From assembly GCA_020425125.1 (NCBI GenBank), contig JAGQRV010000037.1, positions 1 through 64,000 of the forward strand: 64,000 nucleotides of DNA, given 5' to 3'. Of the stretch, positions 56,057 to 62,746 are shown piece by piece. Numbering within the stretch: the stretch's first letter is position 1; the number at the start of each line of letters is the position of its first letter. The stretch is from Paracoccaceae bacterium (lineage in GTDB: Bacteria; Pseudomonadota; Alphaproteobacteria; Rhodobacterales; Rhodobacteraceae). The notes under the pieces were generated by a model. That model did no database searches, was not told the DNA's origin, and saw only the letters and a list, made by a program, of their open reading frames with translations. The position numbers and the translations under genes were made by a program.

Positions 56057-56836
56057 TCACAGCGGAGAGACCAGATGGCCGCCATCGACGACGAGCGTCG
56101 TGCCGGTCATGAACGAGCCCGCTTCCGAGGCCAGCAGCAGCAGCGGACCGTCAAGCTCCTCCGGGCGCCCGAGGCGCCGCTGCGTGATCCGCTTGACCTG
56201 GGCCTTCCCGGCGTCGCTGGCGAAGAAATCGCGGTTGAGGTCGGTCTCGATATAGCCCGGCGCCAGCGCATTCACGCGGATCCCGTACCTCGACCATTCC
56301 AGCGCATGCTGCGCGGTCATCTGCACCATCGCCGCCTTGGAGGCCGCGTAAGCGGTGACACCTGCGCCCTGCCGAAGGCCGAGAATCGAGGCCACATTGA
56401 CGATGGCACCCGGCCGCTTCGCCGCGACGAGACGGCGGACCGCGGCGACCGAGACACGTCGAGCACCGTCCAGGTTGACCGCGAAGACGCGATGCCAGTC
56501 CTCGTCGGACTGATCGAGCGACGCGGCGGGTTCGGCGACCCCGCTGTTGTTGAGGACAAGGTCGACCGGTCCGAGGGCCGCCTCTGCGGCCGCAACCGCT
56601 GCCTCGACCGACGCGCCATCGGTCACATCCATGGCAACGACCGCGGCGCGCGCGCCCTGAGATTCCAGTCGTTCGCGCAGCGCCTCCATCGGCGCCGTCC
56701 GCCGGGCGGCGAGCGCAACGGCCGCACCGGCCCCGGCCAGCGTTTCGGCGAAGCGGGCACCAAGTGCGCCGGAGGCGCCGGTGACAATTGCGGTTCGGCC
56801 GGCAAGCGAAAAGCGGGCGGCGAGGTTGGGGGTCAT
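56057..56836 (-). CDS. Short-chain dehydrogenase/reductase (LvaD-like position)
   Basis: A 259-residue SDR with TGASGALGARFA as the nucleotide loop (about residues 19-30), an NNSG segment, the catalytic serine in NVASI and the YxxxK pair in AYAASKAAM. The absence of an acidic residue at the usual NAD position is not readable without alignment, so cofactor is open. It is the last gene of the lva-like operon. In that operon the SDR LvaD reduces a 4-keto acyl-CoA to the 4-hydroxyacyl-CoA, which would fit. Confidence 0.88.
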   Translation of the reverse strand: MTPNLAARFSLAGRTAIVTGASGALGARFAETLAGAGAAVALAARRTAPMEALRERLESQGARAAVVAMDVTDGASVEAAVAAAEAALGPVDLVLNNSGVAEPAASLDQSDEDWHRVFAVNLDGARRVSVAAVRRLVAAKRPGAIVNVASILGLRQGAGVTAYAASKAAMVQMTAQHALEWSRYGIRVNALAPGYIETDLNRDFFASDAGKAQVKRITQRRLGRPEELDGPLLLLASEAGSFMTGTTLVVDGGHLVSPL

Positions 56837-57165
56837 CGGGACGCCTCCCCGATATAAACGATACGCTCGTCGGCACTGACAGACGTCGGATCGGCAATCC
56901 AGGCACGAACAGCGGCATAGGCGTGCAGCTTCTCATAGAGCGCGACGTCGTCGTCGTGATGCCCGGCCCGGATTGCGGCGGCCTCTGCCGGAATGGCGGC
57001 GCGGGCCGTCTCGGACCTCTGGCCGAGGGCGAGATCGCGGCGCGCGGTATCAATGGCATTCGCGGTGAGAAGCGCCGTATAGCGGCCGGCGCCGGGCAGC
57101 GAGGGCGCCGCGTCCCGCAGGACTGCAGCAGCGCTTTCGAGAAGGTCGAGGGCATCCTGACTCAT
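56833..57165 (-). CDS. DUF6285 small protein (LvaB-like)
   Basis: A 110-residue helical, alanine-rich protein (MSQDALDLLESAAAVL) of the DUF6285 type, which is nearly always next to an APH-like phosphotransferase. In Pseudomonas putida a small protein of this sort, LvaB, is needed together with the kinase LvaA. Overlaps of four bases on both sides (56833-56836 and 57162-57165) indicate strict coupling of expression with the SDR and the kinase. Confidence 0.8.
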   Translation of the reverse strand: MSQDALDLLESAAAVLRDAAPSLPGAGRYTALLTANAIDTARRDLALGQRSETARAAIPAEAAAIRAGHHDDDVALYEKLHAYAAVRAWIADPTSVSADERIVYIGEASR

Positions 57166-58175
57166 GCGATGTTCCTTCCGGCGGCAGTCATCCTCAGGGC
57201 TGCAAGTTCAACGGGGTCGGCGATGCGCGCCGTCAGCGCGAGGTTCAGTGCTTCCGCGCCGCTCGCCCGGCGTCGACCCTGCTGAAGCGCGATGACGGCC
57301 CAGCGGATATGCGCCACGATCTCCCACCAGCGGACCCGCGAGGGATCGATGACGCGGCCGCTCGCCTCTGCATAGCCCTCGTAGAAATGCTCGCGGTCGC
57401 AGATCCCGCCGGCCTCGAGGTCGGGGCGGGAGAAGCGCCAGCATTCGGCGCAGAACCAGCCGATATCGGCCATCGGATCCGACCACGCCGCGAATTCCCA
57501 GTCGAGGATCGCGGTCAGCCCAGCGTCGTCGACAAGGATGTTTCCCGTGCGGAAATCCTGATGGGTAAGCACGACGTCGACCGGCGCCGGCGCCATACGC
57601 TCGGCCTGGCGGAGCGCCCATTCCAGCCCCGGGCGGACAGCGCCCATCGAATCGAGACGCTCGCGCATCAGCGCAATCTCGGACCGGGCGGGGTCCGCGG
57701 GCTTCGGCCCCAGCACGGCGGCAAGAAGCGGGTCCGGCGTGATCGCGTGAATCCGGGCAAGCTGACGGCCAAGCTCCTGGCCGAGTGCGGCCCGGTCTCC
57801 GCCGAGCTTGACTTCGCGAACGATCTTCGGACCGTAGCCGACGCCCGACACCCTCTCGACAAGTGCGAAGGGGCCGCCCGCAACGCTGTCATCCTCGCAG
57901 AAGGCGACCGGCCGCGGCACCGCGACACCCGCGGCCCAGGCGGCCGAAACAAGCGCGTGCTCGTCCTTCCGCGAACGGCTCGCGTCGATCGTCCCTTCCG
58001 CATCGCGGCGCAAGACCAGGGGAAGCAGCGTTCCGTCGGCGCGGACGTCGAGCCCCCAGCTTTCCTGGATGGCGCCACCCGAAAGCTTTTCCGCCCGCTC
58101 GACGGTGACCTCGCTGGCCTTCAGCGCGTTCCGCAGCCAGGACTCGAGCGACGCGTTTCCGACGAAGCCGTTCAT
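57162..58175 (-). CDS. APH-like phosphotransferase (LvaA/ACAD10-11 kinase-like)
   Basis: A 337-residue kinase-fold protein starting MNGFVGNASLESWL at 58175. Brenner's motif H-x-D-x4-N is seen in LTHQDFRTGN and the metal-binding aspartate in ILDWEFA (about residues 210-230). Homologues fused or adjacent to acyl-CoA dehydrogenases phosphorylate the 4-hydroxyl of 4-hydroxyacyl-CoA. The gene overlaps an acyl-CoA dehydrogenase by four bases, exactly the functional pair known from LvaA-LvaC and ACAD10/11. Confidence 0.87.
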   Translation of the reverse strand: MNGFVGNASLESWLRNALKASEVTVERAEKLSGGAIQESWGLDVRADGTLLPLVLRRDAEGTIDASRSRKDEHALVSAAWAAGVAVPRPVAFCEDDSVAGGPFALVERVSGVGYGPKIVREVKLGGDRAALGQELGRQLARIHAITPDPLLAAVLGPKPADPARSEIALMRERLDSMGAVRPGLEWALRQAERMAPAPVDVVLTHQDFRTGNILVDDAGLTAILDWEFAAWSDPMADIGWFCAECWRFSRPDLEAGGICDREHFYEGYAEASGRVIDPSRVRWWEIVAHIRWAVIALQQGRRRASGAEALNLALTARIADPVELAALRMTAAGRNIA

Positions 58176-61170: not shown

Positions 61171-61186
61171 CTGTTCCCTCCCGAGC

Positions 61187-62746
61187 TCAATGGTCGGCCG
61201 CAGCCATCAACTGCGTCTTCAGCACGCGATGCAGGATCTTTCCCGTCGCGGTGCGTGGCATTTCCTCTTCGCGGAAGAACGAGATCGAGCGCGGCCGCTT
61301 GTAGCCGGCGATCTTGTCGCGGCACCACTCGAGGAGTTCCTTCTCGCTCGCCTCGGCCCCGGAATGGAGCACGACGACGCCGTGCACCTTCTCGCCCCAT
61401 TTCTCGTCCGGAAGGCCGATGATCGCCACGTCCTTGACCTTCGGACAGGCACCCAGCACTGCCTCGACCTCGGAGGGATAGATGTTCTCCCCGCCCGAAA
61501 TGATCATGTTCTTCTTGCGATCGATCAGCTTGATGTAGCCGTCACCGTCTCGGATCGCCATATCGCCGACCGTGCAATAGGTACCGCGGAACGCCTCCTC
61601 GGTCTTCTGGGGCTGGTTCCAGTAACCCGAGAATGTCCAGGGGTTGCAGGAATAGAGTTCACCCGGCTCGCCGTCCGGAACCTCGTTCCCGGCCTCGTCC
61701 ATCAGTCTGATTGGGGCCGATCCGACGCATTCCCGGCCGACACTGCCGAGATGGGTGAACTGTTCGTGCGGGCGAAGCATCGTGACCCAGCCGCACTCGC
61801 TCGATCCGTAGAGTTCGAAGAGCCCCGAATTCGGGAACATCTCCATCACGGCGCGCTTGGTTTCGGCGCGCGCCGGGGCAGAGGAGATCATCAGCTTGGA
61901 GACCCGGCCAAGGTCGAGCTTCTGGCTGCCTGCTGCGAGCATCATGATGTAGTGGGTGGGCACCAGCGAGGTGAAGGTCGCGCCCGACTCGCCCAACACC
62001 CGCACGCAGTGCTCGGGATCGAAATTCGCGCGCGAATAGATCGAGGTGACACCGCCGCAATAGCTGAAGGCGGCGAAGAAGTTCACCGAATTGGCATGGC
62101 ACATCGGCATCACCAGAAGCGCGTCGTCGTCGCGGTGAATGCTCAGTTCGATCTCGGTCATGAAGGCGAGCAGCGCGTTGCACTGGTGGTCGCGGATCAC
62201 ACCCTTGGGATTGCCGGTGGTTCCGGACGTATACATGAGCGTCCACGGCTCGTCGGCCGCGATGTCGAGCGCTGGCTCCCAGTCGCTGGCCCGTTCGAGC
62301 AGGCCCTCGTAGGTCTGCCAGCCGGCCGGCAGCTTTCCGGCACCGAAGTGGATGAAGTTTCCGGATGAAACCCCTAGGCGGTCGCGAACCTCCTCGACCA
62401 GACCGTAGAGCGAGTCCTGTGCGATCACCACCGCGGCATTCGAATCCTGAATGATGAAGGCCACCTCGGGCGGGCTCAGGCGGAAATTGATCGGGACCGC
62501 CACAAGTCCGGCCTTGGCGGTGGCGACATAGATCTCGGCCCATTCGAGGCAGTTGTAGGCGAGGACGGCCACCCGGTCACCGCGAGTCAGCCCGAGGCCC
62601 AGGAGCGCGTTGGCCAGCCGGCACGACCGGCGGTTCCATTCGAGGAACGTCAGCGAACGATCCAGGTCCCGCGCACCCAAACGGTCCGGCCGCAGCCGGG
62701 CGTGACCGCTTACCATCTGCCCCAATGTCAGCAGCGTCTGTCTCAT
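61187..62746 (-). CDS. Acyl-CoA synthetase (AMP-forming) (second, LvaE-like position)
   Basis: A 519-residue ligase. It has the P-loop-like YTSGTTGNPKG (about residues 171-181), the adenine motif ELYGSSECG, the hinge KLIDRKKNMIISGGENIYPSEVE and the catalytic lysine in TATGKILHR near the end. It is the first enzyme gene of the minus-strand operon and would activate the substrate acid (for example a 4-oxo or 4-hydroxy acid). It differs in length and context from the ligase at 40306, so the window encodes two separate activation steps. Confidence 0.92.
   Translation of the reverse strand: MRQTLLTLGQMVSGHARLRPDRLGARDLDRSLTFLEWNRRSCRLANALLGLGLTRGDRVAVLAYNCLEWAEIYVATAKAGLVAVPINFRLSPPEVAFIIQDSNAAVVIAQDSLYGLVEEVRDRLGVSSGNFIHFGAGKLPAGWQTYEGLLERASDWEPALDIAADEPWTLMYTSGTTGNPKGVIRDHQCNALLAFMTEIELSIHRDDDALLVMPMCHANSVNFFAAFSYCGGVTSIYSRANFDPEHCVRVLGESGATFTSLVPTHYIMMLAAGSQKLDLGRVSKLMISSAPARAETKRAVMEMFPNSGLFELYGSSECGWVTMLRPHEQFTHLGSVGRECVGSAPIRLMDEAGNEVPDGEPGELYSCNPWTFSGYWNQPQKTEEAFRGTYCTVGDMAIRDGDGYIKLIDRKKNMIISGGENIYPSEVEAVLGACPKVKDVAIIGLPDEKWGEKVHGVVVLHSGAEASEKELLEWCRDKIAGYKRPRSISFFREEEMPRTATGKILHRVLKTQLMAAADH

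Follow-up and report, generated by a model that had tools for sequence, protein, structure and literature searches.

The lvaABCDE operon of Pseudomonas reportedly serves levulinate, as Rand is said to have described in 2017. We addressed a run of six genes that recalls this operon, located on the minus strand between positions 56057 and 62746 of a 64,000-nucleotide stretch (hereafter the window) at the start of contig JAGQRV010000037.1 from a Paracoccaceae bacterium (assembly GCA_020425125.1). Two further systems are close to it. Mammals dispose of 4-hydroxy acids by a major route via a phosphorylated acyl-CoA and a minor one via beta-, alpha- and again beta-oxidation (PMC12440821), and Actinomycetospora chiangmaiensis carries a 2-hydroxyacyl-CoA lyase (AcHACL) in a cluster with HCL, the 2-hydroxyisobutyrate (2-HIBA)-CoA ligase (PMC7176365, PMC8760513); these papers, and PMC11342911, are cited here from excerpts of their text. 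We proposed, with a probability of roughly 60%, that the six genes constitute two catabolic modules, a ligase plus lyase module and an LvaCABD-like module, whose sequences predict disposal of the C2 and C4 hydroxyls on short acyl-CoAs that would otherwise stall beta-oxidation. Like the annotated lva operon on a Pseudomonas plasmid (L101), the run has an LvaA-type kinase, an LvaB-type DUF6285 protein, an LvaC-type dehydrogenase and an LvaD-like short-chain dehydrogenase (SDR); however, its genes are arranged differently, its ligase does not resemble LvaE, and a lyase and a pyrroloquinoline quinone (PQQ) alcohol dehydrogenase system are joined on. With the A. chiangmaiensis cluster it has in common a lyase from one curated family (about 63% identity), the catalytic Glu and acyl pocket of that enzyme, a CoA ligase gene adjoining the lyase, and alcohol-oxidising genes nearby (PMC7176365, PMC8760513), whereas its ligase is not HCL-like, its alcohol dehydrogenase is a PQQ enzyme, and an LvaCABD-like set follows that does not figure in the cluster as described in these excerpts. 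The kinase and acyl-CoA dehydrogenase (ACAD) chemistry resembles that of the mammalian ACAD10/ACAD11 route, and a 2-hydroxyacyl-CoA lyase would provide the alpha-oxidation step of the minor route (PMC12440821, PMC11342911); unlike the mammalian system, the window has separate bacterial proteins in one gene run, with a lyase of the short-chain bacterial type. As judged from homology, the run encodes the enzyme kinds needed for both mammalian routes.

In the direction of transcription, the run comprises an AMP-forming acyl-CoA ligase (61187..62746, 519 amino acids; Pfam AMP-binding, 252 bits), an AcHACL-type thiamine-diphosphate 2-hydroxyacyl-CoA lyase (59413..61170, 585 amino acids), an acyl-CoA dehydrogenase of the ACAD10/11 and LvaC type (58172..59416, 414 amino acids, TTG start), an LvaA-type kinase of the APH family (57162..58175, 337 amino acids, with an ATG start inside a longer open reading frame; Pfam APH, 117.8 bits), a DUF6285 protein resembling the kinase partner LvaB (56833..57165, 110 amino acids) and the LvaD-like SDR (56057..56836, 259 amino acids; adh_short, 176 bits). 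Profile searches backed all six genes with Pfam families. A preliminary description of the window had placed these genes in one minus-strand run, and we confirmed its coordinates, the 16-base gap between ligase and lyase (61171-61186) and the exact four-base overlaps at the SDR/DUF6285, DUF6285/kinase, kinase/dehydrogenase and dehydrogenase/lyase junctions, the last of which holds only with the TTG start of the dehydrogenase. The same six genes occurred in the same order in Paracoccus sediminis (L011; 53-85% identity) and at two further loci (L055 and L089); thus, the run is not a chance arrangement.

The thiamine-diphosphate enzyme is, on profile and alignment evidence, a member of the 2-hydroxyacyl-CoA lyase family and not an acetolactate synthase. 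Its best curated model was the 2-hydroxyacyl-CoA lyase NF058623 (1075.5 bits against a cut-off of 600), and its closest solved relative was AcHACL (7PT1, from Actinomycetospora), with 62.7% identity over 563 aligned columns. In contrast, the acetolactate synthase models among the 25 models shown reached at most 358 bits against a cut-off of 587, and oxalyl-CoA decarboxylase models at most 232 bits, also under cut-off. Although some sources name close relatives acetolactate synthase, these scores and the presence of Glu493 led us to reject that identity, and an enzyme of the IlvB kind is scarcely credible here. The preliminary description had offered two activities for this enzyme, cleavage of a 2-hydroxyacyl-CoA or carboligation, and had named grouping with IlvB as a point against its view; the enzyme did not group with IlvB, and the family membership agrees with cleavage, whereas carboligation finds little support because the cluster has a ligase and no evident source of formyl-CoA. 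Among the close lyase relatives listed with a source-given name, many bear the label acetolactate synthase; for the window protein, the curated lyase model runs counter to that label.

Glu493 of AcHACL participates in proton transfer, and L127 and I492 together with a C-terminal lid limit its substrates to C4-C5 (PMC8760513). In the numbering of that paper, the window lyase is identical to AcHACL at G43, H44, E65, T88, L127, Q128, I492 and E493. The lid is mostly conserved (D561 and K564-Q573 identical; differences at 556, 558, 560, 562, 563, 574, 577 and 579 of the stretch compared), and of the CoA contacts named for AcHACL only S274 is replaced, by Gly, the other six being conserved. For comparison we used the best 80 of 206 relatives from a scan of species genomes together with three plasmid loci (L091-L093), 83 loci in all; since the best 80 were retained, best first, counts over these loci lean to close relatives. 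Across 82 aligned lyases (the window and 81 loci; 14 dehydrogenase-linked and 68 unlinked), L127, Q128 and E493 were invariant and I492 was present in 81; the lyases of L092 and L093, listed apart from these rows, also retained all four residues. These features predict that the lyase cleaves short 2-hydroxy acids as their CoA esters. They also bear on a linear pathway, in which the lyase would cut a 2-hydroxy-2-methyl dicarboxylic acyl-CoA to formyl-CoA and levulinate or a similar acid, the ligase would reload this acid, and the SDR, kinase and dehydrogenase would process it. Such a pathway would directly explain a lyase ahead of an LvaDABC-like set, and the SDR directly follows the lyase in loci such as L029 and L044; however, AcHACL is limited to about C5 by the lid, L127 and I492 (PMC8760513), and because both residues and most of the lid are retained in the window lyase, little room is left for a C6 dicarboxylic acyl group, which makes the linear pathway very improbable. 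Two lyase genes of the set looked broken or mis-sequenced: a second copy at L082 (1624-3121) matched as two overlapping pieces, and the lyase of L009 contained one TAG stop.

The other four genes resemble LvaC, LvaA, LvaB and LvaD. The best solved match of the dehydrogenase was ACAD11 (8v3u), and it was 43.6% identical to LvaC. R626, H634 and R637 (the HCMR motif) and D753 are marks of ACAD10/11 and LvaC (PMC12440821); the window dehydrogenase carries RLGTARLTHCMR and the Asp within LVDGASEVH, and in the alignment the ACAD11 phosphate-binding and Asp positions were present in all 21 bacterial rows, including the window, and absent from the single outgroup. The kinase was 43.6% identical to LvaA with HQDFRTGN...LDW intact, and HxDxxxxN, whose absence the preliminary description had named as speaking against it, was found in 18 of the 18 kinases compared. 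The DUF6285 match of the small protein was weak but over cut-off (PF19802, 31 bits against 28.1), with 34% identity to LvaB; the annotated LvaB of the Pseudomonas plasmid matched DUF6285 at 85 bits, and by this profile LvaB is a DUF6285 protein. The SDR was 49.4% identical to LvaD, SDRs being a broad family. The LvaA-, LvaB- and LvaC-like parts recognized earlier were therefore upheld, and the kinase-dehydrogenase set is predicted to remove hydroxyl groups from 4-hydroxy acids.

The DUF6285 family followed one type of kinase. Among 23 kinases from the loci and from opened plasmid and genome stretches, DUF6285 lay within 2.5 kb of 11 of the 11 LvaA-type kinases and of none of the 12 kinases of the other type; the profile was built from six sequences, five of which are among its 11 matches, so that six of the 11 are independent. 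The window adds a twelfth LvaA-type kinase with DUF6285 beyond those counted, and a homologue search with the window protein returned four sequences, one being the query itself. A CoA-contacting Arg is placed adjacent to the alpha-C Glu (PMC12440821). Arg directly preceded this Glu in ACAD11 and in both kinases of the other type that were aligned, whereas the four aligned LvaA-type kinases had no Arg in that column, some of them having one two residues earlier. Because the aligned LvaA-type kinases are without this Arg, DUF6285 may furnish the substrate contact. If our two-module proposal is true, DUF6285 may have its role as a partner protein to kinases of the LvaA type; the family was not mentioned in the literature searched, which left most subscription journals outside.

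We assigned the ligase to the lyase rather than to the lva-like genes, because a ligase of its kind lay within 600 bases of the lyase in 78 of 83 loci, and because its identity to these lyase-adjoining ligases was 55-79% (best segments) compared with 32% to LvaE. Of the five loci with no ligase near the lyase, three were at contig edges and the others were L038 and L093. These identities led us to reject an LvaE-type identity, and HCL was not found as the lyase partner in the window, whose ligase gave no BLASTP match at 1e-3 to the ligase of the mutase cluster of Methylibium PM1, taken as HCL from its place in that cluster. By these sequence comparisons, the run falls into two modules, the ligase with the lyase and an LvaCABD-like set of the remaining four genes. 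The preliminary description had seen an lva-like operon with an inserted thiamine-diphosphate enzyme; its lva-like parts stood, but the layout of a single insertion did not, the ligase being lyase-linked and not LvaE.

To describe how the two modules travel, we scored gene presence in the loci by tblastn. The dehydrogenase and kinase were downstream of the lyase in 12 of the 55 loci (52 genomic, 3 plasmid) with at least 4.5 kb of downstream sequence, and the lyase-dehydrogenase-kinase join was found in four layouts. The window, L011, L055 and L089 have the order ligase-lyase-ACAD-kinase-DUF6285-SDR; L031, L037, L044, L045, L050 and L082 have ligase-lyase-SDR-ACAD-kinase, an order that L057 follows as far as the ACAD, with no kinase match before the locus ends; and in L029, L034 and L041 this second order is extended by a quinone-oxidoreductase-like gene behind the SDR. 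In Azoarcus KH32C, a phosphatase and the four lva-like genes stand together as a block, with the lyase on the opposite strand, and the locus also holds the ligase, a GntR gene, a PQQ dehydrogenase and an aldehyde dehydrogenase. SDR and dehydrogenase matches lay beside the lyase in L009 as well. The pairing therefore recurs in several gene orders, and it does so with two kinase types. A quickly built lyase tree of 84 rows needed 8 changes to account for which rows have the dehydrogenase, compared with 14.1 for shuffled labels, and at least 4 of the 8 were forced by well-supported branches. In the dehydrogenase tree, lyase-linked and unlinked proteins were intermixed (the mouse row sits on a long branch, and its position carries little meaning), and the Azoarcus protein grouped with LvaC (100/100), apart from the alphaproteobacterial ones; thus, by this tree the join arose at least twice. 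No actinobacterial title was among the best 80 loci, and the survey of the pairing took in no actinobacterial genome.

The two modules also co-occurred at the genome level. In a class-wide sample of 289 genomes, which is free of the lean to close relatives of the locus counts, the lyase was found in 19, the dehydrogenase in 38 and both in 12 (Fisher 1.3e-7); without the genome of the window, 11 of 18 lyase genomes also had the dehydrogenase (Fisher 6e-7). We set the limits at E up to 1e-150 for the lyase and 1e-140 for the dehydrogenase, scored at most four lyase and six dehydrogenase candidates per genome, and took the two draws as the same 289 genomes from their matching handles and equal number. 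The two genes lay within 1 kb of each other in two genomes (G000 and G230) and 7-8 kb apart in three of one genus (G124, G216 and G292). At the family level, 7 of 12 lyase families also had the dehydrogenase (p 3e-4, with an approximate family total of 138). A sample of 397 genomes from the phylum yielded the lyase in 2, the genome of the window and another from its class, so that outside the class the numbers were too small for a test; the second genome also has the dehydrogenase, on another contig.

Several observations weigh against the two-module proposal. The kinase set was not near the lyase (within at most 9 kb) in 43 of the 55 loci, and in 7 of the 12 genomes with both genes these were on different contigs or more than 300 kb apart. 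Plasmid records matching the dehydrogenase numbered 205 (E up to 1e-60) and those matching the lyase four (E up to 1e-150; a second Cupriavidus plasmid, H2, is not among the three plasmid loci); only the Azoarcus record had both, and no lyase was present within 6-9 kb of six dehydrogenase places opened among the 205 records. The lyase was found in three of 61 relatives, the genome of the window included, and in none of the six same-genus genomes searched; the cluster is therefore not a fixed lineage trait. In the 82-row alignment no checked pocket or lid position distinguished kinase-linked from unlinked lyases, and genome size and lineage could raise the co-occurrence, behind which stands only the rough family-level control. 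These points lend some weight to the view that a plain levulinate or 4-hydroxyvalerate operon lies by chance beside a 2-hydroxy-acid module with an unrelated substrate: the modules were apart more often than together in the sampled loci, and in one genome (G131) the two occupy separate contigs, where the kinase set comes with a different ligase of its own (31% identical to that of the window). However, the four-base overlap across the lyase/dehydrogenase junction of the window, the recurrence of the join with different gene orders and kinase types, the genome-level co-occurrence, and the single ligase of the window run, which is of the lyase-linked type, argue against such a coincidence, and we regard it as unlikely.

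The preliminary description took the run as far as the ligase, but the same strand continues upstream into a PQQ alcohol dehydrogenase system, which had escaped that description because it lies mostly beyond the window. An ABC-2 type permease gene of this PQQ-linked cluster (62841..63734, minus strand; ABC2_membrane, 95 bits; TIGR03861, 113 bits, below cut-off) lies 94 bases from the ligase and is followed by the 3' part of an ABC ATPase gene (63731..64000, minus strand), which continues past the end of the window. In the contig sequence fetched from 62001 onward (L094), the same strand beyond 64000 carries genes for a 347-residue protein (U347; no NCBIfam match), a beta-propeller protein, two binding proteins and a PQQ alcohol dehydrogenase (L094:6828-8561, that is, 68828-70561 of the contig, C34; minus strand), which matched TIGR03075 with 535.8 bits over a cut-off of 480.05. 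TIGR03864, TIGR03866, TIGR03863 and TIGR03871 matched the ABC, beta-propeller and binding-protein genes below their cut-offs, and an aldehyde dehydrogenase gene lies further on, on the opposite strand. The alcohol dehydrogenase has WDWD around the likely catalytic Asp, and its closest solved relatives are quinoprotein ethanol dehydrogenases. An Asp two residues past the catalytic Asp is a mark of lanthanide-dependent PQQ enzymes. The permease next to the ligase and a seven-gene PQQ/ABC set upstream were found also in L011, L029, L041, L055, L060 and L087; four of these six loci continue into the dehydrogenase and kinase, and the contigs of L060 and L087 end about 2 kb past the lyase, after SDR and oxidoreductase matches. 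Both versions of the kinase set are thus seen downstream of this PQQ/ABC cluster. Flanks of at least 8 kb upstream and at least 4.5 kb downstream were available for 42 loci; in these, a match to a PQQ dehydrogenase lay on one side or the other in 5 of 12 loci with the dehydrogenase versus 2 of 30 without it (Fisher 0.014).

We proposed the following order of steps. A hydroxylated alcohol would first be oxidised to a hydroxy acid by a PQQ alcohol dehydrogenase and an aldehyde dehydrogenase, and the ligase would load this acid onto CoA; the SDR would reduce a 4-oxo acyl-CoA where needed. The kinase with DUF6285 would phosphorylate the C4 hydroxyl of the acyl-CoA, and the dehydrogenase would turn the 4-phosphorylated acyl-CoA into the 2-enoyl-CoA. 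The lyase would act on a 2-hydroxyacyl-CoA of about C4-C5, whether this is provided as such or remains when a 4-hydroxy acid has passed one round of beta-oxidation, and would release formyl-CoA together with a ketone or aldehyde. The pairing likely lets bacteria use hydroxylated alcohols and acids beyond ordinary fat breakdown, and levulinate may be one substrate.

The small genomes G124, G216 and G292 hint at a connection of the kinase set with 2-hydroxyisobutyryl-CoA. Their lyases are more distant (56-59% identical to that of the window) and their ligases are 69-70% identical to the PM1 mutase-cluster ligase; their loci (L121-L123) bring together the lyase, this HCL-like ligase, a GntR gene and an ACAD-LvaA-LvaB block in a span of about 11 kb. 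Of these loci L121 was scanned: there, the ligase is flanked by mutase subunits and a MeaB-type GTPase, the mutase subunits lie between the lyase and the dehydrogenase, and the opposite strand holds the dehydrogenase, LvaA-type kinase and DUF6285, all within roughly 11 kb. A carbonic anhydrase gene was also seen in L121, as was a formyltetrahydrofolate deformylase gene beside the ACAD. In PM1, hcl has an operon-like order with the mutase genes (PMC7176365); there, on the Methylibium petroleiphilum plasmid (L093), the mutase cluster includes a lyase-family gene (52%) that adjoins a gamma carbonic anhydrase, and both fates of 2-hydroxyisobutyryl-CoA may coexist. Because of this gene company, the kinase set is tied by place to 2-hydroxyisobutyryl-CoA chemistry. 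The genome of the window itself has three methylmalonyl-CoA-mutase-type matches.

One alternative is an essentially 2-hydroxyisobutyrate-type pathway, fed by a branched 1,2-diol via the PQQ alcohol dehydrogenase, with the kinase and dehydrogenase repurposed to a step other than that on 4-hydroxy acids. AcHACL and its PM1 relative do sit in 2-HIBA gene clusters (PMC7176365), and some loci again have genes for PQQ and aldehyde dehydrogenases. However, the window ligase is not HCL-like, and since the ACAD11/LvaC-type phosphate-binding and base residues are all conserved together with the LvaB partner, the established 4-phospho chemistry explains these genes more simply; we consider the repurposing improbable. 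Within the two-module proposal, a more tentative possibility is that one operon brings both mammalian 4-hydroxy-acid routes to bear on the same parent, by 4-phosphorylation and elimination and by lyase cleavage of what beta-oxidation leaves. A short branched gamma-hydroxy acid, for example 4-hydroxy-4-methylpentanoate, would fit both halves because one turn of beta-oxidation would shorten it to 2-hydroxyisobutyryl-CoA, and such a parent would explain the kinase set near 2-hydroxyisobutyrate-type genes in the small-genome relatives. By analogy with mammals, we infer that both routes could serve one parent compound in the organism of the window.

Among the papers listed from the searched literature, outside which most subscription journals lie, no title or abstract opening coupled the lyase with the kinase-ACAD pair, lva, ACAD10/11 or PQQ. 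Within this scope, an earlier account of the gene order with an assigned substrate, which the preliminary description had named as a further point against its view, did not come to light. If our proposal is true, a natural pathway links cleavage of the alpha-oxidation type with the newly recognised phosphate route for 4-hydroxy acids, offering a bacterial model for substrate sharing between the two mammalian routes, and work on one-carbon condensation could draw on well-conserved lyases and ligases. Proteins publicly named acetolactate synthase would then also have a suggested native role. Just downstream of the run, the window contains class III polyhydroxyalkanoate (PHA) synthase-like genes (53580-55366, minus strand; PhaC-like, 334 bits, under cut-off, and PhaE-like, weak), and an Ohr-type peroxiredoxin gene (55389-55859) lies between them and the six genes.

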